The notes under the pieces: generated by a model | The model's database searches: none | Told to the model about the DNA's origin: nothing | What the model saw: the letters and a program-made list of their open reading frames with translations, nothing else | IMG/VR virus record: IMGVR_UViG_3300004461_000214 | Coordinates: 1 to 22,325 of that record | Direction: 5' to 3' (one strand) | DNA length: 22,325 nt | Origin: a virus | Translations under genes and position numbers: made by a program | Shown here: piece by piece, positions 3,490 through 21,839 of the stretch | Layout of the letters: each line of letters starts with the position of its first letter | Numbering within the stretch: position 1 is the first letter of the stretch

Positions 3490-3497
3490 ATATTGAT

Positions 3498-4408: not shown

Positions 4409-5385
4409 AATGGCCCATACCATTGCACATAGCATTTGAACCCATACAGTTGTGCAATGCCAAATGTTTCTGTTGTCCATACACCACACTGAGTGAGGAC
4501 CCCACATATCGCGGTGTGCAGATGAGCACACAACACATCACTGACCTATTGACTGAGTATGGCGAACTGGTTAAGCAACACAAGGTACCCAAATATCAGT
4601 GCACCATAGCACCTTGGAGATACAGCGATCCATTGGTGCAACCCAATCTACCACTCATCATGCAACTGGCGGATCGTTATGATCTTGGAGTGGACATCAC
4701 CACCAATGCAGTCAGTTTCACAGAGCGAATGTGCCGCACACTGGACCGTCACAGGCACCTGCTGAAACAGATACACATATCAGTGATAGGACACACAGAG
4801 CAAGAAGTGTGGGAACAGATGCGTGTCAAGAAATCCAAGACATTGGACCGCTTGCGGTATGTTAAGCAAAATTTCCCCCACCTCAGCAGTCTGATAAAAA
4901 TTGGCATCAAGCACCGTGACAACATCAGACCTTCAGAAGAAATCAAATCTGAATACAGAGCAGTCACACTGGGTAAAGTGGGTGTGAAAACTAATTGGTT
5001 GCACAACAGATTGGGTGATGGAGATGGTGTGTGGCACAGACCCAAACAGTTTAAAATTGACGCCGCACAATACATCCAGGGTTGTGTGATGTCGCAGGGC
5101 AGGATAACCAGAGAGATGGAGATCAGGGTCAACGGTGATGTGGTGCTGTGTTGCGATGACGCAGATGGCAAAACACACTATGGCAATGTGTTCAAAGATG
5201 GTTTACTCACGTGCTGGCAACGTGTGCAACAGACACATGATGTGATATACAGCAAACAATACACTGATGCCAAACAGCAGTTGATCTGCAACACCTGTTC
5301 AAGAGGAGCATTTGCTTGGGGCAAATTCAACCAGACTGAGATTGATCAGCGAAACCAAGAATTAAAACGAACGACTGGGATTTGA
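4405..5385 (+). CDS. radical SAM enzyme with SPASM/twitch-like C-terminus
   Basis: A 326-residue protein. The N-terminus carries the radical SAM CxxxCxxC signature as Cys17, Cys21 and Cys24 (LCNAKCFCCP), which binds the 4Fe-4S cluster that cleaves S-adenosylmethionine. The C-terminal third has further cysteines arranged as in twitch/SPASM domains: a GC near residue 227, then EIRVNGDVVLCCDDADG, then YGNVFKDG, and finally CNTC near residue 298. Such auxiliary clusters are typical of enzymes acting on peptides, sugars or cofactors. It starts by ATGA overlap with the cupin gene and is the last gene of the plus-strand cassette. Substrate unknown; no precursor peptide gene is obvious next to it. 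Confidence 0.82.
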   Translation: MKWPIPLHIAFEPIQLCNAKCFCCPYTTLSEDPTYRGVQMSTQHITDLLTEYGELVKQHKVPKYQCTIAPWRYSDPLVQPNLPLIMQLADRYDLGVDITTNAVSFTERMCRTLDRHRHLLKQIHISVIGHTEQEVWEQMRVKKSKTLDRLRYVKQNFPHLSSLIKIGIKHRDNIRPSEEIKSEYRAVTLGKVGVKTNWLHNRLGDGDGVWHRPKQFKIDAAQYIQGCVMSQGRITREMEIRVNGDVVLCCDDADGKTHYGNVFKDGLLTCWQRVQQTHDVIYSKQYTDAKQQLICNTCSRGAFAWGKFNQTEIDQRNQELKRTTGI

Positions 5386-7901: not shown

Positions 7902-8189
7902 TTACTCGCCAGCACTGTCAGTACACTCTGGTTTGAGTATCACAGCATATGGTTCTTGGCAATGTGGAGTCCAACAACGTATTTTCCACAGAATTTTGCG
8001 AGTTTGGTAACCGTAGGTTCTGTAGTAGGAGTATTTGCCTTCAAATGGTCTTTCTGACAACATGTGATTGCCACCGCATCGTGAACACTCCACTTTTTCT
8101 TGATCAAATTGTTCTGATGTAATTTTGCGTCGTTTGGTGGCGTATTTGTTGGCGTAATAAGCGTTTCTGCTCAATTGAGGTCTGCCCAT
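7902..8189 (-). CDS. small zinc-binding-type protein
   Basis: A 95-residue basic protein with two cysteine pairs, Cys35-x-x-Cys38 (ECSRCGGNH) and Cys72-x4-Cys77 (RCWTPHC), spaced as in zinc ribbons or small treble clefs. The N-terminal 30 residues are basic. The C-terminus ends in TDSAGE, one of the DS[A/G]G motifs found across the virion block. Its ATG overlaps the preceding stop as TAATG. It is the last gene of the virion operon. Function unknown; nucleic-acid binding would fit the charge and fold type. Confidence 0.65.
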   Translation of the reverse strand: MGRPQLSRNAYYANKYATKRRKITSEQFDQEKVECSRCGGNHMLSERPFEGKYSYYRTYGYQTRKILWKIRCWTPHCQEPYAVILKPECTDSAGE

Positions 8190-8371
8190 TACCAGACTCT
8201 GATGAATATGCCAATCAGCATGGTCACAATCAAACCAGTCAATGCCAAAATGTACATTTGGTAACCTTGGATATGATAGAGATGATTGTTCATGATCTTG
8301 TCCAGTGTGCGTTCAATTTTGTCTATGCGTTTTTCTATTGCTTTGATAGGTGTTGGTTTCATATTATTCAT
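8189..8371 (-). CDS. small one-TM protein with coiled coil, holin/XhlA-like candidate
   Basis: A 60-residue protein from the ATG at 8371, joined to the preceding stop as TAATATG, a junction used twice more in this operon. Residues about 8-28 (IKAIEKRIDKIERTLDKIMNN) have heptad spacing of a short coiled coil. The C-terminal third is a hydrophobic membrane segment (MYILALTGLIVTMLIGIFIRVW, about residues 38-59) ending in a basic residue. This coiled coil plus single membrane helix layout is that of XhlA-type and some class III holins. No endolysin gene is visible in the window, so a lysis role rests on architecture alone. A Met three residues later is an alternative start. Confidence 0.5.
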   Translation of the reverse strand: MNNMKPTPIKAIEKRIDKIERTLDKIMNNHLYHIQGYQMYILALTGLIVTMLIGIFIRVW

Positions 8372-8372
8372 A

Positions 8373-8798
8373 TTATGATATTGTGCTACCCAATGCAACC
8401 ACTTTCCAGTTGGAACCATCATACACTGCCAATGTTGTTGCGCCTGAATTACCATTTGAACAGTATGCCAAGTCACCTGCTTCTTTGTCTGATCTTGCGT
8501 TGAGTTCTGTCAGTGTTTGTGGTTTTAGTTGTAGTATTTCTTCTATGTTGACCTTGCCTGTGGCAGGATCCAGTGTTAAATCTGTTGCTGATGTGGAGTT
8601 GATTTCATCTGGCAGTTGTGCCGCTATTATTTTGGATGTGCCATCTAACCCTGCTACACCGTTTGCTGTGTTTCTGCCATCAATCACAGTGATCAATTCG
8701 TCAAATGCCGCCTTGATGTCTGGTCTTGCCGCCGCAGGTGAATCCGTGGCATCATTTAAATTTGTTGTGCTTACGTTTGAACTTGTTCCCCAACCCAT
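8373..8798 (-). CDS. fibre-like virion protein, short form
   Basis: A 141-residue protein. The first 40 residues (ending ARPDIKAAFDELITVID) match in layout the N-terminus of the next gene upstream (SRPEIKTMSDAVNNIVDFID), suggesting a common virion-attachment module. The C-terminus (GDLAYCSNGNSGATTLAVYDGSNWKVV) is a beta-type repeat unit common near the ends of marine phage fibre and tail proteins. AGGAG lies 10 bases before the ATG. It lies after J and the main structural genes, the usual place for fibre genes. Confidence 0.62.
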   Translation of the reverse strand: MGWGTSSNVSTTNLNDATDSPAAARPDIKAAFDELITVIDGRNTANGVAGLDGTSKIIAAQLPDEINSTSATDLTLDPATGKVNIEEILQLKPQTLTELNARSDKEAGDLAYCSNGNSGATTLAVYDGSNWKVVALGSTIS

Positions 8799-8822
8799 AA
8801 TATGGTACTCCTTTGTTGTTTT

Positions 8823-8830
8823 TATTTATA
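8823..8830 (-). promoter_or_regulatory. TATAAATA box ahead of the short fibre gene
   Basis: A perfect TATAAATA on the minus strand, 25 bases before the ATG at 8798, in one of the few gaps (113 bases) in the virion operon. It equals the T4 late-promoter core. A second exact copy lies at 19237-19244. Chance is possible in AT-rich DNA. Confidence 0.35.
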
Positions 8831-8911
8831 AAATTGGTTGCAGTATACAACTAATCTTATCTCTTTGTTTTGCCCGTGTACTGACGTCTACGAGCGACTA
8901 ACACACCTTTT

Positions 8912-9853
8912 TTAACTGAAGTTGGTGCTTAAACTTGCGTAATATATTCCGCCCACAAAACTTATGGTCATGATGTCTATGGCATTGGCACCAGTACTTA
9001 ATGTGGACGTGCCTCCTGCAAACAACATTCTGCCTGCAGAGTCTAAATCTTCTGTAAATGTTCTGTTGCCTGTTCCATCTTGTTTAATGATTAATGTTAG
9101 ACTTTGTCCATTTTCTGCACTGGCAAATCCTTGGAAGTTTACATTACCAGTCAATGTGACTTCCATTAAATTTCCATTTGTTTTGACATCAGGTGTTAAA
9201 TTTGAACCATAAGGCAATTCAAATACTTGTTCCTTGTACCTCATGCCTGCGTCTATGATGAATTGGTCTGATGTTACAGTGATTTTATCAAAATTTTCAG
9301 TAGAACCAGCACTGTCTCCATGTGAATTAAAAGTTATTGCATTTTCAGACTGGAAATTGGTTGCATAGTGATCAATAACAAAATTAACTGCATCCACACT
9401 GATACCATGATTGGTAACTCCTGCTGAAGTGCCACCAACAACAATTCTTGTTTTGTCAGACTCTAAACGTAAATGACCACTTACACCACCCAGTTTACTA
9501 ATTTTAAAATCTGTGCCTCTACCAGTGTTGGTTTTTATGTTGAATGTGTCTGTGTCTAAATCTGATGTCAGTGGATTTGTAACACCTGCCGCGGCAGTTA
9601 TATTAAGAGGCGCACCTCCTGAATCTGGATTAACCAAAAGAGTGTTGCCTAAATGAGCAACTTCTACTTGTGAATTTGCACGATTGTACACCAACAATGC
9701 ATAAGGATCTCCATCTATACCAGTGGTGTCTATAAAATCAACAATGTTGTTGACAGCATCACTCATTGTTTTTATTTCAGGTCTGGATTCTTTGATAGAA
9801 TTTGTGTCTGCTGAAAATTTATTTGAATCTGGTTTGTTTGTTGGCCACGCCAT
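8912..9853 (-). CDS. fibre-like virion protein
   Basis: A 313-residue beta-rich protein. Its N-terminus resembles that of the 8373-8798 product. The body is Gly/Thr/Asn rich with short beta strands (TDTFNIKTNTGRGTDFKISK, GHLRLESD), as in trimeric fibres. The C-terminal 70 residues (LIIKQDGTGNRTFTEDLDSAGRMLFAGG ... IDIMTISFVGGIYYASLS, read in pieces) look like the small beta domain that closes many marine phage fibre proteins. It holds one DSGG and two DSAG tetrapeptides. A GGAGG site lies some distance upstream of the ATG, inside the preceding gene. No host-range domain can be named. Confidence 0.65.
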   Translation of the reverse strand: MAWPTNKPDSNKFSADTNSIKESRPEIKTMSDAVNNIVDFIDTTGIDGDPYALLVYNRANSQVEVAHLGNTLLVNPDSGGAPLNITAAAGVTNPLTSDLDTDTFNIKTNTGRGTDFKISKLGGVSGHLRLESDKTRIVVGGTSAGVTNHGISVDAVNFVIDHYATNFQSENAITFNSHGDSAGSTENFDKITVTSDQFIIDAGMRYKEQVFELPYGSNLTPDVKTNGNLMEVTLTGNVNFQGFASAENGQSLTLIIKQDGTGNRTFTEDLDSAGRMLFAGGTSTLSTGANAIDIMTISFVGGIYYASLSTNFS

Positions 9854-9854
9854 A

Positions 9855-10613
9855 TTAGTTTATCACAACCTCCGTTTGTCCATTTGCTGAAGAAAAGCAA
9901 ATTGGAAGATATTGAATTTGTACATCCACTGTGCAGTCTATTCTACGTGCTTTGCCGTAACTGTCTGCATCAAAAATATTTAACACAAGAGGGGTTGATG
10001 TCTTGTCAATATAGATAAGTGGTCTGACAGGATCTCCTCCTGAATCATCCAATCCTGTGATGTGTGGTTGTATAATACAGTTGGTAATTTTGCCTGTTTC
10101 TTTTTCAAATGTTAATTGTCTAGCACCCACAGAACCACCCAGTGTGCTGGTGTCTATGTCTGACTGTGAAAGTGGCAAGGTGCTGTTGTTGAAACCCACA
10201 TTGAAATCGTTTAAAAATAGTACAGGAGATCCTGCTGAATCTTCTGCTCCTGCTGAATCACCTGTGCCTTGCGTTAAAGTAAATTTAAAAAATCTTGCAT
10301 ATATGCCTGGCACGTCTGCTGTGTCAGGTGAAATTGTAGCGGTGCTTGGAGAATCAATTGCTCCTCCTGTGCTGTCAACAGTGTTGCCATACTGCACTGT
10401 TGTGATAACAGGTGCTCCAGAATTAAATGTTAACAATGGTAGATGCCAATCCAAACCGCCAGCGTCAATGATGTTGGTGGTAAATTCTAAAAGAGAACTG
10501 GGTGTGCCTCCCCAACTAGTGAGTGTGCTCCAATTGGTATAGTCTGCCCAACTTTCCACACTGCGAGCAAATAGAGTGTTTTCAATTTCATCAAAATATC
10601 CGTTGCTTGACAT
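9855..10613 (-). CDS. structural protein downstream of J
   Basis: A 252-residue acidic, Ser/Thr/Gly-rich protein with no recognised domain. It starts with MSSNGYFDEIENTLFARSVES. It holds two DSAG tetrapeptides six residues apart and one DSGG. The ATG is one base after the J stop (TAATATG) and AGGAGG lies within the last J codons. Position between the tail-tip gene and the fibre genes suggests an adhesin-associated or baseplate component. Identity is inferred from context only. Confidence 0.55.
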   Translation of the reverse strand: MSSNGYFDEIENTLFARSVESWADYTNWSTLTSWGGTPSSLLEFTTNIIDAGGLDWHLPLLTFNSGAPVITTVQYGNTVDSTGGAIDSPSTATISPDTADVPGIYARFFKFTLTQGTGDSAGAEDSAGSPVLFLNDFNVGFNNSTLPLSQSDIDTSTLGGSVGARQLTFEKETGKITNCIIQPHITGLDDSGGDPVRPLIYIDKTSTPLVLNIFDADSYGKARRIDCTVDVQIQYLPICFSSANGQTEVVIN

Positions 10614-10614
10614 A

Positions 10615-12993
10615 TTATCCTCCTAAATTCTGTTGTCCACCAGCATCAAAACCGTATGTTTCTTGTAGATAGTTAACAAAACCTTCTAATCCATCGTCCT
10701 CAATTTTTGTGCCTTTAATGATGTATTTTTTCTTAGTAAAATTTGTTTCTGAAAAATCACCTCCCATTGCATATTCATCTTCTGGACCAGGATTTGTTTT
10801 TATTGGTCTAATTTTTGCTACTAACCCTTTTACAAGAGGAATACGTATGAAATTGCCGCCGCTTAACCGTCTGTAATAAACAGTTCCTTGAGGAGTTCCT
10901 TGAACAGTTGATGTATTGAACACGTTGGCAAAATTTCCATGACTACCTGCAAAAAATATATGACCACCACTACTTTCTTTGTTGCCCATAAAATATTCTA
11001 ATCTCAATCCATTCACACCAGGTTCTTGTGGTAGTGCCAATGCAATTTCACCCACATTGCAACGATATCTTACACCATTTATTATTATAACACTGGTGTA
11101 GTTAGAACCTTGACGTTGTACCAAAGTCAAATATCCGTTTTCTCTAATGTCTGCACCGCTGTCTACTCTTTTGATTAAACAACTGGTTGGTATGGATAAT
11201 GCGTTGTTGTGTTGATACACTTTGCCACTCCACACAAGGGGTGTGCTAGGATAGGCAACCAATTGTAAATCGTATCCATAAAATTTATCTAAACTTGGTT
11301 TTTTAATTGGTTCATACTCAGGAGGTGGTGTTGGTGCAGGTATTGGTCCTGCAGAATCATCTGGTATTGGGTAAGGCGGTTTAACACCTTTGGGTGGATC
11401 ACTCACAGGTCTTTGCAATGGTCTGCCTGAATATTCATCTGGTAGATACACAGTGGGTGGATTTTCTATCTGTTCACCTGACACGTGTGGATAATGATTT
11501 GCTGTGTGTTCCACAGCAGATATATCTATCAAACCTTGATTGGTCAATTTCATATCTACCACTCTAAATGTACGCAAATCAAGATCCAGTATGTCTTCTG
11601 ACATTCTGATAATGTCACCTGGTTCCACATTGAATAATTCTTGTGTGCCTGTAAAACTTAATGTTCTTTGATTACGTGATTTCAAATAAATCATTCTTGC
11701 CATTTCACGTGCTATGTAAGGATTGGTAAGGGTAGTAAATGTAAATTCACCTGACATTTCTTCATCGTCATCCACTGCTTGATCACCTGCCTCACTGAAC
11801 ACCACTTGTTGACTGCTGAATTCTTTGTCAGGATCTATGTAGTTCACATACACATTGTTGTATTTGGATACTTTGGATTCTCCACCCAACGTAACTGACC
11901 CCACAATAAAAAAGTTACTGACATCAAATGCAACATCAATTGTGGCAGATGTTATGTCAGTGGCATTACCGCCATCTTCTACTTTTAGTTTGTATCTGCC
12001 ACTCACAAAAGGCAGTATGCCTCTGCAACCACCTACTAATTGTTTTACATTGTCTATTAATTTTGATTCTGTGGTCAGCACTGTGTTGCAAGTCAACACA
12101 AATTCAGTAAACTTGCCGTCATCATCTAGGTCTACTAATTGATTAAATTTTTCAGCGGCAATTCTAAAACTTTCTGTGTGTATGTCTTCTTTTTTGATGC
12201 CCAATCCATAACGAGGATTCATCATGTAATCCAGCAACACACATGCTGGGTTTGTGCCTGGTCTGTTAGAATCTGTTTCCACATAAGTCTTTGATAAATC
12301 TGCATAATCGTTTGGTAGGTTTTCGCTGTCTGGAGTTACTGTGGTAAGATCAAAAACTTTTTTACCAAACACATCAAATTGAATTTGTGGTACACCGCCA
12401 CCAAAAGGATTAGAATCTATTTCTGCTTGATTTGAATTTTTCCATTCAAATCTAAATGCCGCATATGCAACACCTGGTAATTTTCTTACACCATTGTTCC
12501 AACTGGGTGATCCGTTTGCCAATGTGCTTTGTGGTTGATCTTCTGTGCCGTTGAATATTTGAAATTGTACTCTGCCACTGTATCTACCTGTGCTGGATGT
12601 GTAAACTTGTGCATGATTGTATGTGTTGCTGGTACCTGGGTGTGGCAACAGTTCGTTTTCATCCAATTTGATTCTGTGTACACCTCCAATCTCACCTTCA
12701 CAAATAGCATACACCACATACAGATATTGATTACTGCTTCCGTTGGTTTCCACGTGTACAATTGTGCCACCCAAACGTCTAAATCCATACGCCACAGGTA
12801 TTCCAACATTGGTACCTGACTTGGTAACTTTAACACCTTGTGCAAGTGATTCTGCAGATACGTCTGGTGTTTCAAAAGAACCAAAAGGTTTTATAATAAA
12901 TCCAAAAGCATCACCCACAAAAGATGTTATGCCTTTGACTGCTTTTTTAATTCCTTTTATGATTCCTTTGATTGGTTTTTTTATGAATCCCAT
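10615..12993 (-). CDS. tail-tip/host-specificity protein (lambda J-like)
   Basis: A 792-residue protein. The first 40 residues are hydrophobic and basic with an IKG repeat (IKKPIKGIIKGIKKAVKG). Then follow J-family marks: IPVAYGFRRLGGTIVHV, YAICEGEIGGVHRIKLDENE and NPACVLLDYMMNPRYGLGI near residue 260, and later FNVEPGDIIRM. A Pro-rich linker (PIPAPTPPPEYEPIKKP) near residue 560 leads to a variable C-terminal region that would contact the receptor. J proteins form the tail tip and decide host range. The start at 12993 overlaps the preceding stop as TAATG, with GGAG 7 bases upstream. One DSAG lies in the linker. The protein is shorter than lambda J (1132). Confidence 0.87.
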   Translation of the reverse strand: MGFIKKPIKGIIKGIKKAVKGITSFVGDAFGFIIKPFGSFETPDVSAESLAQGVKVTKSGTNVGIPVAYGFRRLGGTIVHVETNGSSNQYLYVVYAICEGEIGGVHRIKLDENELLPHPGTSNTYNHAQVYTSSTGRYSGRVQFQIFNGTEDQPQSTLANGSPSWNNGVRKLPGVAYAAFRFEWKNSNQAEIDSNPFGGGVPQIQFDVFGKKVFDLTTVTPDSENLPNDYADLSKTYVETDSNRPGTNPACVLLDYMMNPRYGLGIKKEDIHTESFRIAAEKFNQLVDLDDDGKFTEFVLTCNTVLTTESKLIDNVKQLVGGCRGILPFVSGRYKLKVEDGGNATDITSATIDVAFDVSNFFIVGSVTLGGESKVSKYNNVYVNYIDPDKEFSSQQVVFSEAGDQAVDDDEEMSGEFTFTTLTNPYIAREMARMIYLKSRNQRTLSFTGTQELFNVEPGDIIRMSEDILDLDLRTFRVVDMKLTNQGLIDISAVEHTANHYPHVSGEQIENPPTVYLPDEYSGRPLQRPVSDPPKGVKPPYPIPDDSAGPIPAPTPPPEYEPIKKPSLDKFYGYDLQLVAYPSTPLVWSGKVYQHNNALSIPTSCLIKRVDSGADIRENGYLTLVQRQGSNYTSVIIINGVRYRCNVGEIALALPQEPGVNGLRLEYFMGNKESSGGHIFFAGSHGNFANVFNTSTVQGTPQGTVYYRRLSGGNFIRIPLVKGLVAKIRPIKTNPGPEDEYAMGGDFSETNFTKKKYIIKGTKIEDDGLEGFVNYLQETYGFDAGGQQNLGG

Positions 12994-13466
12994 TACAACT
13001 CCTTCACATACATATTGCCACACCATTTCATATTTTTCATTTCAAAATATTTACTGGCACGTTCTACATATTCTTCATCAACGTTGTAATCTTTGTCAAA
13101 CAAAAACACACCGCTCATTATTAATTCAACATCTTGATCTCTTAAAAAATCTTCTATTTGGTCAAAGAATTTGTGACTGCTGATCTTGTGTCTGTAATCA
13201 GGATGTAAAAAAAACATTTCTACATTGGCCACTCTCACTCTGTTCCAAGTTAATTCTGATAAACTGACCACACTGTAACCTACCACTCTGTCATCCTTGA
13301 TGTACAATAAAATATTGCTTTGTTGTTCTATCAATCTTTGTTTGGTTAATTCTAATGCTGTTTCCACATCAAAATTTAATTTGCCAGACACATTGGCCTC
13401 TTCAGCGTGTATGCGATAAATTTCTTGCAGTTGATTGAAGTGTGAGATGTTTGCTTGTTTTAACAT
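12993..13466 (-). CDS. GNAT-like acetyltransferase in the tail module
   Basis: A 157-residue protein (MLKQANISHFNQLQEIYRIHA...). It follows the GNAT fold order: N-terminal helices, a strand with DDRVVGYSVVS near residue 60, and a long strand VRVANVEMFFLHPDYRH near residue 85 before the cofactor helix. The acetyl-CoA loop of active GNATs (R/Q-x-x-G-x-G/A) is replaced by YRHKISSHKFF, so activity is in doubt. The start shares TAATG with the hub gene. In lambda-like tails this slot between hub and J usually holds an NlpC/P60 peptidase and assembly genes. It might modify a tail protein or have been recruited as a structural or assembly factor. Confidence 0.65.
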   Translation of the reverse strand: MLKQANISHFNQLQEIYRIHAEEANVSGKLNFDVETALELTKQRLIEQQSNILLYIKDDRVVGYSVVSLSELTWNRVRVANVEMFFLHPDYRHKISSHKFFDQIEDFLRDQDVELIMSGVFLFDKDYNVDEEYVERASKYFEMKNMKWCGNMYVKEL

Positions 13467-14056
13467 TATTTTATACCCCATTTTATTTCTGCCAATGCTT
13501 CGTGTGAAAATTCCATACTGGCATCGTTGGCATGTTCTCTTTGAAAATTGTTTTGATTGGTTCTGCGTCCATTCTTTCTGTTGAAATTCACAAACTGCGA
13601 ACTTACTTGTAATTGTATGTCTGCTGATGTTTGATTGTTGGTCACACTGTAACCTGCTATTTTGCCTTTGAACAACAAGAAAGCATTTTCACCTGCTGAA
13701 TCACCAAACAACACATTGGTGCTTGGGTCAATAAATCCTCTGTATATGCTCACAGTTTGATTTATTATTTCTGATGTGGCAAACGTTTGCACATTGGCAA
13801 GTGTTAAGGCACTGATTGCTATGTTTACAGAACTGATTTGTACAGCACTGTTCAATTGTGTTTCACTGATAGACATAAATTCACCCTGTGCAGAATATGT
13901 TTCGCCATCAAATGTTAGATCATAAGGATTGTTGGTGTATCTCAATGTGTCTGATCCACCGCCACTGTCAGGTGTGTCTATCTCCAACAACAACACACTG
14001 GTAAATGTGTTGCCTGCAAGATATGTGTTTAATGGATCAGAAAATCCGCGAGGCAT
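13466..14056 (-). CDS. tail hub protein, DUF2163/lambda L-like
   Basis: A 196-residue protein with the layout of small tail hub proteins: LLLEIDTP followed by LRYTNNPYDLTFDGETYSAQ near residue 40, a beta domain with VSIYRGFIDPSTN near residue 103, and FKGKIAGYSV. It ends with FVNFNRKNGRRTNQNNFQRE and a WG-containing tail. These proteins form the ring between the distal tail protein and the tip. It carries DSGG near the N-terminus and DSAG in a central turn. TAATG joins it to both neighbours, and GAGGAGGT lies in the last codons of the upstream gene. Confidence 0.72.
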   Translation of the reverse strand: MPRGFSDPLNTYLAGNTFTSVLLLEIDTPDSGGGSDTLRYTNNPYDLTFDGETYSAQGEFMSISETQLNSAVQISSVNIAISALTLANVQTFATSEIINQTVSIYRGFIDPSTNVLFGDSAGENAFLLFKGKIAGYSVTNNQTSADIQLQVSSQFVNFNRKNGRRTNQNNFQREHANDASMEFSHEALAEIKWGIK

Positions 14057-14694
14057 TAAATTACCTCCTCAACATCCATCCTATAATTCACAGTGCCGTC
14101 TACATTGTATTGATATTCTTGTAGATCACTGCTCATAATCACTTTGAATGGCACGTTGTCGTATGTGACTGTTTCACTAGTTGATACTTGTAACACCAAT
14201 GCTGGTTCAAAAGCAATGGCAAAACCTGCTGAGTCCATCACAGCATCTTCTGTTGCCATGTACACTTTGCTGTGTCCTGAAAATTTAATCACATCACCCA
14301 TTTTGAGTGCTGTGGCATTGATGTTGCCTTGGTCAGTTGTAACGTTGACGCTGGTTGAACCTTGTCCAAATGATCCTTGCACTGTGACTGTGCCCACATT
14401 GTCAGTTGCTGTTCTAAAACTTATTTCTGGTATCTCTATGGTAAAATCGTTCACACTGGTTTTTGCTTTGGCAATAAAACCTTGTATCTGTTTAAAATCT
14501 GACACAGTAAGACTGACCAACTCCAATGTGCCTTTGAACAATGTGGTTGCCGCTGTGCTTCTTATGATTCTGCCTGATGCAGTTTTTGTGACAGCAACTT
14601 CATTCTGTTGTTTGAAGTTGACTGCTCTAAATTTTATTGGTGTAGCATTTGATAAAATGCTTGAACTTCCGTTGAATGCTCCTATGCTTGCCAT
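14056..14694 (-). CDS. distal tail protein-like
   Basis: A 212-residue beta-rich protein directly after the tape measure gene, where distal tail (Dit-like) or lambda M-like proteins are encoded. It begins MASIGAFNGSSSILSNATP and ends with an oligomer-type strand pattern (FKVIMSSDLQEYQYNVDG, then NYRMDVEEVI). A central DSAG sits in a turn (DAVMDSAGFAIAF). No catalytic motif is seen. TAATG at both ends. The assignment rests mainly on gene order. Confidence 0.6.
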   Translation of the reverse strand: MASIGAFNGSSSILSNATPIKFRAVNFKQQNEVAVTKTASGRIIRSTAATTLFKGTLELVSLTVSDFKQIQGFIAKAKTSVNDFTIEIPEISFRTATDNVGTVTVQGSFGQGSTSVNVTTDQGNINATALKMGDVIKFSGHSKVYMATEDAVMDSAGFAIAFEPALVLQVSTSETVTYDNVPFKVIMSSDLQEYQYNVDGTVNYRMDVEEVI

Positions 14695-16793
14695 TATGCT
14701 GTGATCCCCTCTCTTCCTTGTCTGTTCATTGCTTCATTGATAACGCCCACAATTGTTGATCTTCTTTCCAACAACAGTTCGTCAAAACCTGTTGCGTCCA
14801 CTGTTTCAATGTTGAAGTTCACTGTGACTTGTTGGCCCATTGCACCGTTTGATGTAATTTGTCCACCTGCATTAGGTGTAAACATTTCTGGTCCCTTTTC
14901 TCCAACCAAGTATTGTTGTCCTGCAGAAACTGGTCCACCTTTTTCTCTTGGTCCTGTGTATGTGGTTGATTTAATCTTAGCAATTTGTACTGCACCAGTT
15001 GCCGCAATCAATGCCGCTTGTAAATATGCACCTCTACCTAATGCAAACATCACACCTTTTGCTGTGCTGATAATTGTTTCAGATATTGCAACTGCTTTTG
15101 CTATCTTGAATGCTTTTTCGTTAATTTGTGCCAGTTCACCCAACAACTCTTTACCAAGTGCTGTGTTAAGACCTTTTTTGTCTTTGCCAAATGCCTTTTC
15201 AATATCTATTTCTTTTGCTTTACCAGATTTAATTAAATCAATTGCATCTCTTCTTTCTCTTTGATTTCTTGCTTCTCTGTCCAGTTGTGCTTTTCTTTCT
15301 AACACAGCAACAGCATGATGATATTCTTCTAAACTGATTAAATTTCTGTCTAGTGCGTCTTGTAGTTTTTCACCTTCTTTTACATAAGATGTTCCAAATG
15401 TGTCGTCAAACACACCGCCCACAGACTTGGCCACACTGGACAAACCTTCCATTGCTTTTTGTAATTCTTTTGCCGCTTTGTCTTCGTCTATCTTAGGTGT
15501 AATAACAATTGGATCAACGTTTAATGCTGTCTTGGTGTCATTTTTTAATTTTTCAATTTGTGCTTCTAAATCTGCTCTGTCTTTGTCTGAAACAAATTTA
15601 AAAGGACCACCATCTTCAAATGCTTGATTGAATGCTGATTTCATTCTGCCACCAAAATCTTCAAATGCATCTCTTGGGTCTTTTAAAGTTAATGCTTTTG
15701 TGATCGCCTCAAAGAGTATTCCGCCAAATTCAAGAGCAACATTGCCCAATCCTTGAAATGCGTTTATAAAATTATTTGTAAATTTTTCCAATGCATACAA
15801 CAATTTAACACCTAAAGCGCCTTCTAGTTCTAACAGAGGTTTTAATAATGTGTAAACTCCAGTAACTGCAATTGCTACTGCTGACGCAAACAACAATAAT
15901 GGATTTCGCATCATCGCAAGATTTAATTTTGTCATAGCAAGTCTTAAACCGCCAACTCCACGAGTAAACATTATTAATTTACCCAAAGCAAGAGAGGCAC
16001 CAAATGCAACGGCACCTACCACTGCTGTTTCAAGATTTCTACCTACCACCAATATAGCGTTGGCAATTCCTTCAAACACTGGTGATGATGATCTGCCCAA
16101 TGCAATGAAATTATTTTGTAACACAGTTAAACTTTGTCCAATTGTGGCAGATGTTTTGCCAAATTGTTCGTCAATATCTTTACTGCTTTTTAACAATGAA
16201 TTAATCAATACATCTGCAGTTAATTTACCTTGAGATGCAAGTGCTCTAATTTCTCCTCTTGCCTTGCCTGTTTCAGCGGCAAGTATGTCTAGAATTAATG
16301 GAGCGGCCTCAACCACTGAGTTGAATTCATCACCCCTAAACGCACCTGATGCCAGTGCTTGACCAAACTGTCTAATTGCACCAGCGGCAGTACCTGCATC
16401 TGCACCTGATATTGCAAGTGTTTTGGCAAATGTTTCTGTGATCTGTGCTGTGGTTGCCTGACTGATACCTAAATCTTTAGTAGACAGTGCAATTTTAGTA
16501 TATAAATCAACCACACCTTCCAAATCTCCTCTAGATCTATTAGCAACCTCTTGTAGTGTGTTGAAGGTTGCATTTAGATTTTGTTGAGAAGTGGTAACTA
16601 TTTTCAGTCTGTTATTAACATTCTGAATGGTGTTGGCGTAATTGTATAGAGCACGTACAGAAAACGCCGCGGCGGCAATTTTGGCAAGATTGCCAAGACT
16701 GCTGTTTAGACCTTCAACATTCTTTTTAGTCCTGTTAAGTGCCGCCCCTGTTTTATCAACGACGACTAGTTCTAGTCTTACTTGCTCCGCCAT
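14694..16793 (-). CDS. tail tape measure protein
   Basis: A 699-residue protein. Residues about 60-240 carry the TMP_2-type tape measure domain (RSRGDLEGVVDLYTKIA, then IRQFGQALASGAFRGDEFNS, then GKARGEIRALASQGKLTADV). Hydrophobic segments follow at about 245-290 and 295-320, then a charged helical region. The C-terminus has GGPVSAGQQYLVGEKGPEMF, typical of tape measure ends. It sets tail length; at about 1.5 angstrom per residue this predicts a tail near 100 nm. The ATG has AAAGGA 8 bases upstream and overlaps the end of the frameshifted chaperone gene by 38 bases. No peptidase domain is visible. Confidence 0.9.
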   Translation of the reverse strand: MAEQVRLELVVVDKTGAALNRTKKNVEGLNSSLGNLAKIAAAAFSVRALYNYANTIQNVNNRLKIVTTSQQNLNATFNTLQEVANRSRGDLEGVVDLYTKIALSTKDLGISQATTAQITETFAKTLAISGADAGTAAGAIRQFGQALASGAFRGDEFNSVVEAAPLILDILAAETGKARGEIRALASQGKLTADVLINSLLKSSKDIDEQFGKTSATIGQSLTVLQNNFIALGRSSSPVFEGIANAILVVGRNLETAVVGAVAFGASLALGKLIMFTRGVGGLRLAMTKLNLAMMRNPLLLFASAVAIAVTGVYTLLKPLLELEGALGVKLLYALEKFTNNFINAFQGLGNVALEFGGILFEAITKALTLKDPRDAFEDFGGRMKSAFNQAFEDGGPFKFVSDKDRADLEAQIEKLKNDTKTALNVDPIVITPKIDEDKAAKELQKAMEGLSSVAKSVGGVFDDTFGTSYVKEGEKLQDALDRNLISLEEYHHAVAVLERKAQLDREARNQRERRDAIDLIKSGKAKEIDIEKAFGKDKKGLNTALGKELLGELAQINEKAFKIAKAVAISETIISTAKGVMFALGRGAYLQAALIAATGAVQIAKIKSTTYTGPREKGGPVSAGQQYLVGEKGPEMFTPNAGGQITSNGAMGQQVTVNFNIETVDATGFDELLLERRSTIVGVINEAMNRQGREGITA

Positions 16794-17291
16794 GGTTCAT
16801 TCCTTTGTTAGCGTTGTCATGCTGTATTTTAAAATACGAGGCCCATAACTGGATCTCCAGGACACTGAACTGCATGACTTCTTCTATTGATTTACCTAGT
16901 TCTTTTGCTATGTGCATCAACAGAAATAGTTCTGTGTCCTCTCTTAGTTTTTTGAGACATCCTCCTGTGTATATTCAGATGTCGCATTATTTAAAGCACT
17001 AGCAACTTTGATTAATGTAGAAGGATCTGCTTCGTTCATCATTGTTACTTTGTCAAACTTATGAAACATAGGTTTGCCATCTGGTGTTAGTGCTTTGTTA
17101 ATCACTGATTCAACCAATGCTTCCACAGTTTTACCTTGTGTTTGCAAATCAATAATTTTTGACTCTACAGCAAACGAGTATACCGCTTTGTAGTAGATGT
17201 CTGTTTTCCATTCTGGAACTGTCATTTTTAACAGTTCACCATTTAATTTAGACTTAAAGTGTGTTTTTATATTGTCTAATACTTGTGTCAT
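16756..17291 (-). CDS. tail assembly chaperone GT fusion, made by -1 frameshift
   Basis: The stretch between the G-type chaperone stop (16944) and the tape measure start has no start-initiated gene, yet its -1 frame is open from the slippery site to a TGA at 16758-16756. The extension is 63 residues, beginning LREDTELFLLMHIAKELG and continuing through an ILE-WASYF-type helix. This is the helical T domain expected of lambda-type GT proteins. With slippage at 16947-16953 the product is about 178 residues. GT binds the tape measure and recruits tail tube protein before assembly. The T part has no ribosome site with a usable reading frame: the ATG at 16958-16960 opens only a 22-codon frame. Confidence 0.8.
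16920..16966 (-). promoter_or_regulatory. -1 ribosomal frameshift signal
   Basis: The slippery heptamer A AAA AAC (minus strand 16953-16947) is in the correct phase, three bases before the TAA. An SD-like AGGAGG (16966-16961) lies 7 bases upstream, as in dnaX-type signals. Downstream, after 11 bases, ACAGAA (16935-16930) and TTCTGT (16925-16920) form a 6-bp stem with a 4-base loop. All three parts of a bacterial -1 signal are present, though the stem is short. Confidence 0.8.
16944..17291 (-). CDS. tail assembly chaperone, G-like
   Basis: A 115-residue protein with the usual G-type layout: MTQVLDNIKTHFKSKLNGEL, then TVPEWKTDIYYKA, then INKALTPDGKPMFHKFDKV and an NEADPSTLIKVAS segment. The ATG overlaps the preceding stop (ATGA) with AAGGAAG upstream. 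Translation normally ends at 16944; a fraction of ribosomes shift into the T frame. It works with GT to coat the tape measure during tail assembly and is not kept in the virion. Confidence 0.82.
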   Translation of the reverse strand: MTQVLDNIKTHFKSKLNGELLKMTVPEWKTDIYYKAVYSFAVESKIIDLQTQGKTVEALVESVINKALTPDGKPMFHKFDKVTMMNEADPSTLIKVASALNNATSEYTQEDVSKN

Positions 17292-17608
17292 ATTCTTCCT
17301 TTTGTTTTAAATGACTTAATGGTTGGCCTCACTATACCATTAGGTCGTTGTTTGCTACGCCCTCGTTCCAGCAGACCAATGTAAGGCACGCGATTGGTGA
17401 TTCTGTGTTCTTTTTGAACAAAGTTTCCTGATGATGGATTTCTACCCACCGTCTTTTTCCAACCTCGTCTTGCTCTGCCTTTATCAACAGGTGTGTATAT
17501 TTTCACCTCTTGAAAAATTCTTTCTGCGATGCGATCTGACACTTTTCCTAGTTGCCTTTGGATCCGTGTGAAGACCGCATCAAGATTGGATATTTTACCT
17601 CCAATCAT
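17288..17608 (-). CDS. tail completion protein, HK97 gp10-like
   Basis: A 106-residue basic protein from the ATG at 17608, the first Met after the preceding stop (MIGGKISNLDAVFTRI). The open frame extends upstream but overlaps the tail tube gene. Its centre shows TPVDKGRARRGWKKTVG near residue 40 and NRVPYIGLLERGRSKQRPNG near residue 73, the pattern of HK97 gp10-type neck/tail completion proteins. These act at the head-proximal end of the tail. Confidence 0.7.
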   Translation of the reverse strand: MIGGKISNLDAVFTRIQRQLGKVSDRIAERIFQEVKIYTPVDKGRARRGWKKTVGRNPSSGNFVQKEHRITNRVPYIGLLERGRSKQRPNGIVRPTIKSFKTKGRI

Positions 17609-17613
17609 CAGTA

Positions 17614-18015
17614 TTATATTGTTTCTTCGTGTAGTATTCCGTTTCCTTGAAAACTGCATGATACTGTGACTAAGTCATCAAAACTTGCTGTTCTAGAAAC
17701 TGAAGTAACAATTACATCTCCAACATACTTTACGCCTGTTGTTGCTGGAAAAAATTCTACAGAAATGTTGGCGTCATTTGCTGGATCAAACACAGAAGCA
17801 CTTGTTTGTGCTGTGTCGTACATGCACTCCATAGTGCCTGTAAATTGTGTTAAACCGCTTATATATGTTCTAGCGCCATCGCCCATTGCTGTATCTTCTA
17901 CTACGTCTTTTGTGTGTTCAATTGTCCAAGATCTTACTTCTGCTACTTGAGTAGAAGCACCACCTGAATCATCGCCAAACATCACTTTACCGTTTTCACC
18001 TGTTAGTGTTGCCAT
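17614..18015 (-). CDS. major tail tube protein
   Basis: A 133-residue beta-sandwich-type protein (MATLTGENGKVMFG...). Features of small tail tube proteins include AEVRSWTIEHTKDVVEDTAMGD near residues 25-45, LTQFTGTMECMYD, and a C-terminal VTVSCSFQGNG strand. It polymerises around the tape measure. A strong GAGGAGA site lies 9 bases before the ATG, consistent with high expression. One DSGG (FGDDSGGAS) sits in the first loop. It overlaps the end of the preceding small gene by 20 bases. Confidence 0.75.
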   Translation of the reverse strand: MATLTGENGKVMFGDDSGGASTQVAEVRSWTIEHTKDVVEDTAMGDGARTYISGLTQFTGTMECMYDTAQTSASVFDPANDANISVEFFPATTGVKYVGDVIVTSVSRTASFDDLVTVSCSFQGNGILHEETI

Positions 18016-18274
18016 CGTTGGTCTCCTCTTTTAGATTGTTAATGTCCCATTCAATATCGCTCATGTCTTCTTCTGAGTGTATTGGTTCTGGGGTGTTGTG
18101 GTTGACTTCTGCTTGTGCTTTGATTTCAACCTTTGGCAGAAGTTTTTTCTTAGACTTGGGTTTTTTAACTGTGTCTTTTTTAGTTGTCCAACCCGCCTCT
18201 AGAAATCTGTCTAGACGATCTGATTCTATATTTTTCTTTTCAGATCCTTTGTGTACTTTAATATATCGCGCCAT
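17996..18274 (-). CDS. small charged protein between tail genes
   Basis: A 92-residue protein. The N-terminal 30 residues (MARYIKVHKGSEKKNIESD, then a FLEAGWTTKK turn) form a compact motif seen in small neck-region phage proteins. A Lys-rich linker (KKPKSKKKLLPK) and an acidic tail follow. GGAG lies 11 bases before the ATG. Role unknown; the basic linker and acidic tail suggest a disordered or assembly-time function. Confidence 0.55.
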   Translation of the reverse strand: MARYIKVHKGSEKKNIESDRLDRFLEAGWTTKKDTVKKPKSKKKLLPKVEIKAQAEVNHNTPEPIHSEEDMSDIEWDINNLKEETNDGNTNR

Positions 18275-18276
18275 TA

Positions 18277-18726
18277 TTATACTGCTCCTTTAGTAAATGA
18301 ATATCTCACGTCCGCCGTTATTAAAAACTCTCCCAAGGGTGGCGTACGATCAATTATTTCAACTGTTCTAACACGTGTGGTTGATGCTTGGGATGCCGCA
18401 AGTTCACGTGTTCTATCTGAATTCAACGTTTCTTCAATACGTTCAATCAATTCATTTCTTTTTTGATCCACTGTGATGATTTGTGCTGATCTTCCATCTG
18501 CTCTCACAAAACCACGGATCGTTATTTCTATAACACCTCTTCTGCCACCACCCATCACATGGTCTTCTCTGGTTTCATTACCAGTTGTGATTAGTAGTGC
18601 AGGAAATTGTGTAATTGCTAATTTTTCCACGTCAAAAGGTTCACGTGTGACTAGGACAGGTCTTGGAGGAGTCATGTCCTGTAAAACTGATTCTATGTTG
18701 TGTGCTATGTCTTCTCTGTTACTCAT
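18277..18726 (-). CDS. tail terminator-like protein
   Basis: A 149-residue protein (MSNREDIAHNIESVLQDM...). It has the order expected for tail terminator or minor tail U-like proteins: an N-terminal helix, FPALLITTGNE near residue 41, the strand GVIEITIRGFV near residue 65, a helical hairpin IERIEETLNSDRTREL and a C-terminal ITADVRYSF strand. Position between the connector and tail tube genes agrees. No more specific call is possible. Confidence 0.6.
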   Translation of the reverse strand: MSNREDIAHNIESVLQDMTPPRPVLVTREPFDVEKLAITQFPALLITTGNETREDHVMGGGRRGVIEITIRGFVRADGRSAQIITVDQKRNELIERIEETLNSDRTRELAASQASTTRVRTVEIIDRTPPLGEFLITADVRYSFTKGAV

Positions 18727-18729
18727 CTA

Positions 18730-19182
18730 CTACCTTTTCAAACGGAGAAAATGAGTAGGTTCCTTTTCAGCATCGCTAACATCTCCTGATGAATCCATAT
18801 CATATTCTACACCGTCTCTTAACACAAGATCCATTTCTCTTTCGTATTCTTTACGATAGAATTCCATCTTTCTTTCAAAGATGTCTTGATCTGCGTCAAA
18901 TTTTGCTAATTTTGTATAAACGTGAAAACCTAAACAATTGTAACACGCCACTCTTGTGAGTTGACTTGCTGTGTACATATCTTCATCTGGTTCGTTTTGT
19001 CCTGATGATAGATATTTTAGGTCATACAAACCTATCTGTTGTGTGGGCCACCAACGTATTCTAAGATCTCTAAACACATCGTTTTGTGCTTTTGTGATTT
19101 CTTCGTCAAAGTCAGGTATGCCGTAATTTAAGATATCAGGTTCGTAGTCTTGGATGTCTGCAATGGTTAATAATGTTGCCAT
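18730..19182 (-). CDS. head-tail connector/adaptor protein
   Basis: A 150-residue, mostly helical acidic protein (MATLLTIADIQDYEPDILNYG...). It lies directly after the capsid gene, where gp6/gp16-type connectors are encoded, and has their helix-rich character (ITKAQNDVFRDLRIRWW, QLTRVACYNCLGFHVY, FERKMEFYRKEYEREMDL). A near-miss of the operon's tetrapeptide, MDSSGD, sits near the C-terminus. It is preceded by a 140-base gap with a TATAAATA box and hairpins, so it may begin its own late transcript. Confidence 0.65.
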   Translation of the reverse strand: MATLLTIADIQDYEPDILNYGIPDFDEEITKAQNDVFRDLRIRWWPTQQIGLYDLKYLSSGQNEPDEDMYTASQLTRVACYNCLGFHVYTKLAKFDADQDIFERKMEFYRKEYEREMDLVLRDGVEYDMDSSGDVSDAEKEPTHFLRLKR

Positions 19183-19236
19183 TAGGGGTACTACCTCCGT
19201 AATTGTTAATAATAATCAAGTTCTGCTTGATGTGTT

Positions 19237-19244
19237 TATTTATA
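19237..19244 (-). promoter_or_regulatory. TATAAATA box in the gap after the capsid gene
   Basis: A perfect TATAAATA on the minus strand, 54 bases before the ATG at 19182 and just past the 19258-19285 hairpin. It matches the T4 late-promoter core and the second copy at 8823-8830. It could restart transcription of the connector and tail genes. Confidence 0.35.
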
Positions 19245-19257
19245 CCGCAGTCGTGAA

Positions 19258-19285
19258 GAAAGGGCGAAACGAATTCCGCCCTTTC
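19258..19285 (-). terminator. strong hairpin after the major capsid gene
   Basis: GAAAGGGCG (19258-19266) and CGCCCTTTC (19277-19285) form a perfect 9-bp GC-containing stem with a 10-base loop, 38 bases past the capsid stop. The minus-strand exit is TTCACG, so the U-tract is poor. It may attenuate transcription so that capsid mRNA exceeds tail mRNA, or stabilise the capsid mRNA 3' end. Confidence 0.6.
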
Positions 19286-19295
19286 AAGATATATG

Positions 19296-19311
19296 ACCAT
19301 ACAAGTATGGT
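19296..19311. repeat. second hairpin after the capsid gene
   Basis: ACCATAC (19296-19302) and GTATGGT (19305-19311) form a 7-bp inverted repeat with a 2-base centre, 10 bases from the larger hairpin. In DNA it could be a protein site; in RNA the loop is tight and the inner pairs would open. Confidence 0.45.
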
Positions 19312-19322
19312 AATATTATTTA

Positions 19323-20180
19323 TTATAGGTTTGCGTCCCCAACAATACCAACACCATAAGTGTCAAATATTTCTGCTGTACCGTACGCCATAGAACCAAC
19401 GATTTCGTCTGCTCTAGCAGAAGCATCTCTTTGGTTCTCTACTCTTAAGTTACGTTTAACCATGTAACCTAATGCGTCGCCGTGGAATGCCGCACCAACG
19501 AATGCACCTGCTGAGTCACCAGATATAACTGTTGATTCAAAGATTTGCATTCCTGCAAGTGTTCCTACAAATCCAGTTCTCAATGCTTCATTACCTAAGT
19601 CTGATAGGTTATGAGCAATTGTTGAACCAGCGTTTGTTAACAATTTCTTGATTTGGAACGCTTGTTTAGGGTGTAACACACAGTATAACGGACCACTTGG
19701 AACTTTTGCAGTTCTTAGTGTTGCCGCCGCTTTGAAAAGATCTTCTACTGAAATCTCGTCTGCGCCTGTTCCTACAGTTTGTGAAAAACCTGAGAATAAC
19801 GCCGCGATGTCTGTGTCAATTTTCTCTGCTAATGCAGATCCAATTTGTCTTCCTACTGCTGAAGCAACATCTTCTGCTGATGCTTCTTTCATAAGGTCAG
19901 TTAAAGTAATCATTACACCTTTTTCTGTCGCTGTAATTGTTTTTGACGTTGTCAAATCAAATGCCGCGTTAGTTAGGTCAACACCATCACCTGGTGTGCT
20001 TACCGCAACTGTTGGATATATTGGAACCTGAGCAGTTAACCCTGGTGTTCCAGACATATCATAGTTTCTTATTAAAGGTCTCATGATTGAAGTTTCGTTC
20101 AATGTGAAAAGACCTGATTGGACTACGTTACTAAAAAACGCTGATCCTATTCCTGTATCTACTGCGTTTGTAATCGCCAT
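19323..20180 (-). CDS. major capsid protein, HK97 fold
   Basis: A 285-residue protein. HK97-type coat features are a T-rich N-terminus, the strand pair TAQVPIYPTVAVST near residue 49, EKGVMITLTDLMKEAS (E-loop/spine region) and the long helix DVASAVGRQIGSALAEKIDTD. The P-domain motif LYCVLHPKQAFQIKKLL lies near residue 165, and NLRVENQRDASARADEIVG, the conserved C-terminal strand and helix, near 243. There is no protease gene; a separate scaffold gene lies upstream. AAAGGAGAA is a strong ribosome site. It has a DSAG in a loop just before the final domain (VISGDSAGAFVG). Confidence 0.9.
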   Translation of the reverse strand: MAITNAVDTGIGSAFFSNVVQSGLFTLNETSIMRPLIRNYDMSGTPGLTAQVPIYPTVAVSTPGDGVDLTNAAFDLTTSKTITATEKGVMITLTDLMKEASAEDVASAVGRQIGSALAEKIDTDIAALFSGFSQTVGTGADEISVEDLFKAAATLRTAKVPSGPLYCVLHPKQAFQIKKLLTNAGSTIAHNLSDLGNEALRTGFVGTLAGMQIFESTVISGDSAGAFVGAAFHGDALGYMVKRNLRVENQRDASARADEIVGSMAYGTAEIFDTYGVGIVGDANL

Positions 20181-21047: not shown

Positions 21048-21839
21048 TTACTCCTCCTTTTTGTTGTAATTTTGCTTTACCAGTTCAATTACTTCTTTGG
21101 GTTCAATAGAATCCATTGCTTGTTCACAGTATGTGCAAGTACCTTTTGGCACATGACAACCCAAACCGTCTGGATTGCAATGTGTCTTACGTGTAATATT
21201 TATTTGGCCTTCATATCCTGTTCTCTGGGGACTTTGATGACTGCCATACAACACCACACAAGGCACATCAAGATTGCCTGCTATGTGATGCACTCCACCC
21301 TCTGTGGTCACCACCATGTGTGCGTACTTAATCATTATCATGGTTTCACGTATTGAAAGACATCTTACATTTTGCAGTCCTGGATAGTCTGTTTGTCCTT
21401 TTGCATTTTTTACAAAAGTTGGACTGGGCAATGCTCTTATCAATGAGTAATCTTGTAGACCATCTATCACTGCTTGCCATCTAAAATATTTTTTGTTGTC
21501 TGCAAATATAGAATCTTTAGCATCTGGGTTTATAAGAATATAAGGTTGTAATTTTTTGTAATTCAACTTGAACCACATCTCTTCTGAATCTTTAAATTCT
21601 ATAGGTGCTGTTTTTGGTTTGTAAGGTGTGTTGTTGTGATACCACCGTTTGTTGTTGTTTGGGTGTGTTTCAAATGGTTCTCCGTAATTGAAGTCTAACC
21701 AAGGTGTGTTGTGCCACACAGGTTTTGCAAATCCTTGTGCAATACCTTTTGCTTGTCTGTGAGGTTTTTGTTTTTTGCCTGTCTTTTTGAATTGGTGGTA
21801 TGCTTCTGCACGCCACATCATGTCATCACCTATTCCCAT
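21048..21839 (-). CDS. glycosyltransferase family 9-like protein in the head module
   Basis: A 263-residue protein. Its C-terminal half has the GT-B/GT9 (heptosyltransferase-type) donor site pattern: MVVTTEGGVHHIAGNLDVP followed by CVVLYGS, near residues 175-200, then SPQRTGYEGQINI. A four-cysteine cluster (HCNPDGLGCHVPKGTCTYC) is placed as in many GT9 proteins, before IEPKEVIELV. The N-terminal half (YHQFKKTGKKQKPHRQAKG...) is less conserved-looking. It lies between the portal and scaffold genes, an unusual place for a glycosyltransferase. It could glycosylate a virion protein, or a host surface sugar late in infection. No clear ribosome site precedes the ATG. Confidence 0.72.
   Translation of the reverse strand: MGIGDDMMWRAEAYHQFKKTGKKQKPHRQAKGIAQGFAKPVWHNTPWLDFNYGEPFETHPNNNKRWYHNNTPYKPKTAPIEFKDSEEMWFKLNYKKLQPYILINPDAKDSIFADNKKYFRWQAVIDGLQDYSLIRALPSPTFVKNAKGQTDYPGLQNVRCLSIRETMIMIKYAHMVVTTEGGVHHIAGNLDVPCVVLYGSHQSPQRTGYEGQINITRKTHCNPDGLGCHVPKGTCTYCEQAMDSIEPKEVIELVKQNYNKKEE

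Follow-up and report, generated by a model that had tools for sequence, protein, structure and literature searches.

Maf enzymes put nonulosonic acids, and in one case 3-deoxy-D-manno-oct-2-ulosonic acid (Kdo), on surface Ser/Thr residues of flagellin (PMC11339370). The general O-glycosylation system of the Bacteroidales uses the sequon D(S/T)(A/I/L/M/T/V), and the O-glycan of Tannerella contains uronamide and O-methyl groups (PMC4030854). Among phages, the mycobacteriophages Che8, Rita and their relatives encode glycosyltransferases and bear covalent glycans on their major capsid proteins, as cited in PMC11256854. Here we describe a recurrent Asp-Ser-(Ala/Gly)-Gly tetrapeptide, DS[AG]G, in the virion proteins encoded by the viral sequence IMGVR_UViG_3300004461_000214 (the window, which is the complete IMG/VR record of 22,325 bases) and by its relatives. 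We propose, with a probability of roughly two in three, that phage glycosyltransferases recognise DS[A/G]G as a serine-specific sequon for O-glycosylation, the Ser modification, the reader and the sugar all being putative. To our knowledge, glycosylated phage virions have been described in few systems, none of which uses one acceptor tag over the whole particle. We also know of no common tetrapeptide over the capsid, tube, hub, J and fibres of the mycobacteriophages, whose hosts and enzymes differ from those considered here.

Like the Bacteroidales sequon, the lineage motif has an Asp before the putatively modified Ser and an Ala after it, and one glycan would be placed on many proteins. Unlike that sequon, it does not use Thr, its +2 position is strictly Gly, and Gly is accepted at +1. 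The Bacteroidales enzymes are extracytoplasmic, whereas phage virions are assembled in the cytoplasm. Maf is the best fold match of the model of a lineage protein of ~185 amino acids (aa), hereafter the Maf-like protein, and the Maf substrate is a polymerising structural protein; however, the Maf chain has 632 residues, and the sequences are too distant for hidden Markov model matches to PDB chains. The beta-Kdo transferases of the KpsC/GT99 type have the fold predicted for a second lineage family, here called KpsC-like, but with ~10% identity, no Pfam match and a predicted local distance difference test (pLDDT) score of 74. Pelagiphages of the HTVC111P/112P type have capsid, tail and terminase genes homologous to those of the lineage, and their capsid proteins are 41-45% identical to it, but they lack DSAG as well as matches to the Maf-like, KpsC-like and lineage GT9 profiles.

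Enrichment of DS[AG]G in virion proteins

Nine DSAG and four DSGG tetrapeptides are encoded on the minus strand of the window, and a six-frame scan revealed no further DS[AG]G. The eight open reading frames that carry them encode a Zn-type small protein (one site), the fibre (three), the post-J structural protein (three), J (one), the hub (two), and the distal tail, tail tube and major capsid proteins (one each). In the 15 virion-block proteins (3758 aa), these 13 occurrences compare with 0.27 expected from residue shuffles, in which the maximum was 3 in 1000, and with 0.90 expected from dipeptide-preserving shuffles. The Poisson probability of at least 13 given 0.27 is 5e-18, uncorrected for the post hoc choice of the motif. 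When all tetrapeptides of the virion block were ranked, DSAG (9) was clearly first, and DSGG (4) was level with GDSA, which overlaps DSAG. An earlier note on this DNA had listed 13 such tetrapeptides in eight virion-block proteins, had estimated from rough residue frequencies that far fewer than one should occur, and had seen none in the plus-strand cassette, scaffold, tape measure or chaperone. All 13 positions proved exact and on the minus strand, the residue shuffles gave the low expectation that it had guessed, and the proteins named as motif-free are so throughout the window.

Because DS[AG]G had been picked post hoc, independent data are the better test. The window itself appears to be a fragment, since its portal gene is truncated at the right end and no terminase was seen. 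Relatives were gathered with the capsid protein (40) or taken as the best 80 of 149 from the hub alignment. The lineage set comprised 702 non-redundant proteins (165,288 aa); members on contigs of at least 28 kb (n=7) were treated as near-complete. The closest deposited genome was that of the lake phage DSL-LC06, a metagenome assembly whose terminase clusters with those of Pelagibacter phages and whose predicted host belongs to the Pseudomonadota (PMC10611076). A hub-profile search of bacterial genomes for proviruses or hosts returned no match.

In the 702 proteins, DSAG was found 151 times against 4.0 expected, a 38-fold enrichment far above that of shuffled controls. DSSG (8.1x), DSTG (5.4x), DSGG (5.1x) and DSYG (4.4x) were also enriched, while NSAG (1.3x), DSAA (1.3x) and DTAG (0.9x) stayed near chance, ESAG was absent (0) and DAAG reached 1.9x. 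The DTAG count was 4 against 4.6 expected, indicating that Thr is not accepted. Thus D, S and G are near absolute, position 3 follows the order A>>S>T,G, and the specificity profile of D-S-[A>S,T,G]-G is, as far as sequence can tell, enzyme-like. Single genomes gave the same picture: DSL-LC06 has 8 DSAG, G014 has 14, G034 has 12 and G037 has 11, with ~0.2 expected in each, and DSAG is repeatedly the commonest tetrapeptide across the lineage genomes. When tetrapeptides were ranked by the number of distinct proteins containing them, DSAG headed the list for the window and for each of the seven near-complete relatives, in 6-9 proteins each; by the same count in 10 other phages, it occurred in 0 proteins (9 phages) or 1.

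The distribution over protein classes was equally uneven. About 150 sites, against ~2.3 expected, fell in the fibres, the post-J, distal tail, hub and J proteins, the Gp80-type fibre I, the tail tube and the capsid. No motif was found in the lineage tape measure proteins (20,851 aa), portal, terminase, scaffold, chaperone, tail terminator, completion proteins or named enzymes. The 247 unassigned proteins contained 2 sites, one in a virion-like protein of 214 aa and the other in an enzyme of 534 aa, which is the single exception. The motif therefore appears, from these sequences, in nearly every outward-facing virion protein and in almost no internal protein or enzyme. In the head-tail connector (18730-19182, minus strand), the DSSG of the sequence MDSSGD is kept in all near-complete IMG/VR members examined, and this one conserved site supplies part of the DSSG excess. 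The earlier note had read the sequence correctly and had called it a near-miss; because the site is conserved and position 3 tolerates Ser, it may instead be a true site.

Homologous virions outside the lineage lack the motif. The isolated pelagiphages HTVC112P, HTVC026P, HTVC202P and HTVC111P have neither DSAG nor DS[GST]G, the uncultured pelagiphage-like contigs L032-L041 have no DSAG, and none was found in lambda, Venkman, MEP402, CRP-5, Mae-JY09 or MW202462, with 1 in C72C1. Phages encoding a homologue of the Gp80-type fibre protein have 0-1 DSAG. With 0-1 DSAG in 11 comparison phages, a common trait of phage virions or of Gp80-type fibres is excluded. The earlier note had singled out the case of related phages that lack the motif and keep the glycosyltransferase; the homologous pelagiphages lack the motif and show no match to the lineage glycosyltransferase profiles. 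An enrichment of NTTG/TAVG in HTVC112P, HTVC111P and Venkman was considered as an analogous motif and rejected, because nearly all of it stems from repeats inside one fibre protein. Fibres with these repeats are common to HTVC112P, HTVC111P and the Methylophilales phage Venkman despite their different hosts (L043:26168-28438, L046:24562-26997 and L161:25361-27553).

Gain and loss of the sites

Alignments of the eight families contained 30 distinct serine columns. Some sites are old: Asp-Ser is present in 20/20 sequences at hub column 130 and in 8/8 non-redundant homologues of the tail tube, 6 of which have DSAG or DSGG. Many others are recent, such as the hub DSGG, which comes with a 4-residue insertion, EDSAGY in the post-J protein of L020, and the sites in distal-tail loops and J linkers. 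Many motif columns are gaps in non-carriers, indicating that the motif arrives in loop insertions, a possibility for which the earlier note had advised alignment to homologues. Decayed sites often keep the Asp-Ser, as in DSGS, DSGD, DSAT and DSAN. Among the 151 sites there are 49 codon spellings, and serine codons of both the TCN and AGY boxes occur; this excludes a DNA-level repeat and agrees with the view of that note that the signal lies in the peptide. The flanking residues vary and include few Lys/Arg (flank Kullback-Leibler divergence of at most 0.61 bit). The many spellings, the diverse flanks and the sites in gap columns together point to convergent gain of a peptide motif, and the gain and loss of single sites with the per-genome total kept fits a sequon. 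Enrichment in unrelated proteins with independent gain and loss in homologues is what characterises short linear motifs, and D-S-[A>S,T,G]-G is, on this comparative evidence, a selected linear motif found lineage-wide on virion surface proteins.

The positions of the individual sites in the window are given in Table 1. The PxPxDSAGPxPxP pattern of the J linker was found again in L007, L030 and L031. TDSAGE forms the C-terminus of the small Zn-ribbon-like protein, and WDSAGD that of the one other homologue with the motif, VILKPEFWDSAGD; since the motif otherwise lies on virion surfaces, this small protein may be accessible from outside the virion.

Table 1. DS[AG]G sites and candidate enzyme genes of the window
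Feature	Position	Strand	Remark
DSAG, major capsid protein (19323-20180)	19506..19517	-	GDSAGAFVG kept in most of the clade
DSGG, tail tube protein (17614-18015)	17959..17970	-	close to the N-terminus
DSAG, distal tail protein (14056-14694)	14224..14235	-	variable-length loop
DSGG, hub protein (13466-14056)	13958..13969	-	4-residue insertion
DSAG, hub protein	13691..13702	-	DSAG/DSGG/DSTG in 18/20 non-redundant homologues
DSAG, J (10615-13026)	11347..11358	-	Pro-rich linker
DSAG, post-J structural protein (9855-10613)	10248..10259	-	tandem pair, member 1
DSAG, post-J structural protein	10230..10241	-	tandem pair, member 2
DSGG, post-J structural protein	10035..10046	-	site 3
DSGG, fibre protein (8912-9853)	9614..9625	-	
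DSAG, fibre protein (8912-9853)	9305..9316	-	
DSAG, fibre protein (8912-9853)	9032..9043	-	
DSAG, small Zn-ribbon-like protein (7902-8189)	7908..7919	-	extreme C-terminus
GT9 (heptosyltransferase-family) glycosyltransferase	21048..21839	-	between portal and scaffold; PF01075 E 2e-8
KpsC-like glycosyltransferase	66..977	+	predicted GT-B, beta-Kdo-transferase-like; fold match
Asparagine-synthase-type (AsnB) amidotransferase	1607..3295	+	possible glycan tailoring; PF00733 E 2e-46; TIGR01536
FkbM-type methyltransferase	3399..4067	+	possible sugar O-methylation; PF05050 E 3e-10
Cupin	4064..4408	+	possible sugar-nucleotide tailoring; PF07883
Radical SAM/SPASM protein	4405..5385	+	same cassette; PF13186 above, PF04055 below cut-off
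GNAT acetyltransferase	12993..13481	-	between hub and J

Candidate enzymes

Three putative glycosyltransferase families accompany the motif in the lineage. A Maf-like gene at the end of the fibre block was present in all seven near-complete members (one copy divergent, E 1e-3), as was the GT9 gene, which is truncated at the contig end in G014. In a close relative, the Maf-like gene occupies L169:10001-10543. The KpsC-like family was found in 6 of the 7, and in complete relatives it lies near the Maf-like gene. Profiles of the Maf-like, KpsC-like and lineage GT9 families gave no match in 4 pelagiphages, 6 other phages and 4 pelagiphage-like contigs, while weak PF01075 (GT9) matches were present in HTVC112P and HTVC111P. 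The GT9 protein of the window scored 34.1 bits against PF01075 (cut-off 22) and also matched WaaF (1psw, E 4e-5). On the plus strand, the AsnB, FkbM, cupin and radical SAM/SPASM genes follow one another in a compact cassette (1607-5385); the AsnB-type amidotransferase was found in 6 of 23 contigs compared, and the real start of the FkbM gene may lie downstream of the TTG used here.

The Maf-like family was modelled with AlphaFold2 from 17 sequences (pLDDT 91.7, predicted template modelling score 0.88). The GNGxS...CN...SG motifs of the family had already suggested the Maf/sialyltransferase class ahead of the fold search. After re-alignment, the best match of the model was the Magnetospirillum Maf 5mu5 (Z 11.9 over 160/180 residues at 3.1 A), and SteA (Z 10.8), Cst-II (2x62, 9.8), another sialyltransferase, pyrophosphokinases (~9) and human ST6GALNAC2/ST8SIA3 (~8) came next; the viral structure matches included proteins named DUF115 and MptE-like. 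G7, N8, G9, S11 and N27 are invariant in the family and H159 is nearly so (alignment A7), giving a GNGxS signature and a conserved His, which we take to be equivalent to residues of Cst-II. The DSL-LC06 copy was labelled a sialyltransferase by its depositors. For the AlphaFold2 model of the KpsC-like protein, KpsC chains took ranks 1-4 (Z 9.4-10.4, with 6mgd at 10.4) and the Kdo transferase WbbB (Z 8) was among the later matches. Sequence-profile searches of the PDB gave no meaningful match for the Maf-like or the KpsC-like family, and the latter had no match of note among Pfam, NCBIfam or PDB-sequence families.

Proposed mechanism and alternative explanations

In the mechanism that we propose, the surface loops and linkers of outward-facing virion proteins would carry the D-S-[A>S,T,G]-G sequon, and one or more phage-encoded, probably cytoplasmic glycosyltransferases would recognise it and glycosylate its Ser, either ahead of assembly or in the course of it, with the result that the capsid, tail tube, baseplate and fibres would all bear one common glycan. 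The likeliest reader would be the Maf/GT42-type enzyme of ~185 aa, with a CMP (cytidine monophosphate)-nonulosonate or CMP-Kdo donor; in relatives its gene closes the fibre block, and it would lie beyond this partial contig. The KpsC-like, GT9, FkbM and AsnB-type enzymes would then extend or tailor the glycan, and by analogy with the Tannerella glycan, the AsnB- and FkbM-type enzymes could supply uronamide and O-methyl groups. Glycosylation is the simplest account that joins the surface Ser motif with the Maf-class, Kdo-transferase-like, GT9 and tailoring enzymes of the same genomes. We regard a variant of virion glycosylation, conditional on the chemistry, as the leading but unproven explanation. 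The more specific version, a general sequon-directed O-glycosylation system of the phage's own in which D-S-[A/S/T/G]-G on all classes of surface virion proteins is recognised by a miniature Maf-class enzyme (or a GT9 partner) and the particle is covered with a glycan made by the phage, falls a little short of even odds. What such a coat would do, whether shielding from receptors or grazers, adsorption or stability, is speculation.

Several observations weigh against glycosylation by these enzymes. The lineage members are known solely as metagenome-assembled genomes, one contig (G022) has just 2 DSAG, and the Maf-like gene is missing from the window fragment, in which the GT9 and KpsC-like genes are present. 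The association of motif and enzymes is confined to one lineage, and its co-occurrences are therefore not independent. Distant Maf-like homologues (~25-33% identical) were found on unrelated contigs (L180-L187 and L189-L193) that have no DSAG and no detectable homologue of the structural proteins of the window, and thus they provide no independent association. A Foldseek search against the PDB yielded no significant match for the Maf-like (E 0.02 or worse) or KpsC-like protein, both assignments are based on VIA-align second-look scores of Foldseek candidates, and SteA and the pyrophosphokinases have the same fold as the Maf-like protein. Maf enzymes have no known sequon (PMC11339370), whereas in the lineage a strict one would mark the proposed substrates, which are numerous virion proteins unrelated to one another. 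In our literature search, no paper was found that names DSAG as a glycosylation motif. In addition, a large lectin-like protein of the fibre block (L002:19145-19909 and homologues) has DSAG in none of 14 non-redundant members; perhaps it is left unmodified owing to receptor or glycan binding.

The alternatives differ in what would read the motif. A form of the glycosylation explanation itself, with which its credence overlaps, is that the GT9 enzyme initiates by transferring ADP (adenosine diphosphate)-heptose or a related sugar onto the motif Ser, as cytoplasmic autotransporter heptosyltransferases do, and that the Maf-like and KpsC-like enzymes extend the glycan or act elsewhere. Its presence in all near-complete members, its place within the virion operon between portal and scaffold in the subclade of the window, and the PF01075 and WaaF matches speak for this order of events, but HTVC112P has a weak PF01075 match and no DSAG, homologues occur in the short DSAG-free fragments L207 and L209, and GT9 enzymes act mostly on the lipid A-core. 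We consider it a serious variant, though rather unlikely. A non-covalent docking motif, bound on all surface virion proteins by a decoration, chaperone, receptor-mimic or host protein, is a less probable alternative still. A peptide-binding domain would be just as likely to select a short, strict motif whose flanks vary and whose host loops are unrelated, and the lineage has conserved proteins of unknown function; however, no candidate peptide-binding protein was identified, many genes of these genomes are devoted to glycan chemistry, and the strict use of Ser over Thr, together with the survival of Asp-Ser in decayed sites, indicates that the Ser hydroxyl matters.

A different Ser modification, namely acylation or acetylation by the GNAT enzyme, or phosphorylation, seems very improbable to us. 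In most lineage members, the GNAT gene separates the hub gene from J, and at that place, just before the large tail protein, HTVC112P, 026P and 111P have genes annotated as 'toxin-activating lysine-acyltransferase' or 'RTX toxin acyltransferase'; an acyltransferase in the tail module may be a general theme. These acyltransferase-bearing pelagiphages nevertheless lack DSAG, the set of glycosyltransferases would be superfluous for acetylation, and G009/L020, which has no GNAT gene between hub and J, keeps 9 DSAG, which disfavours GNAT as the reader, although that contig is incomplete. We give next to no credence to a generic beta-turn or loop preference of the host or lineage that involves no partner. 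Asp-Ser-Ala-Gly would fit a type I turn with a bulge, and loops hold many of the sites. A turn preference should, however, accept N in place of D, T in place of S and further small residues at the last position, which the motif does not: the near-synonymous, interchangeable turn sequences are not enriched (NSAG, DTAG, DAAG and DSAA against DSAG, as given above). In addition, the internal proteins of these virions and the homologous pelagiphage virions do without the motif, and a recurrent site lies in the Pro-rich linker of J. Thus, of the three readings offered in the earlier note, a shared modification such as an O-linked sugar is the best supported, though putative, selection for one turn type is disfavoured, and a common binding partner is less probable.

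Implications

In this lineage, sequence alone predicts a modified residue, its specificity and candidate enzymes. If the glycosylation proposal is true, it would explain why small aquatic phages encode several sugar-chemistry genes, and glycosylated virions would become predictable from metagenomes. It could also mean that a Maf-class enzyme reads a strict sequon, and protein engineering would gain a genetically portable acceptor tag of four residues for O-glycosylation. If the motif is not glycosylated, the presence of one tetrapeptide on unrelated virion proteins across the lineage still calls for a specific reader.

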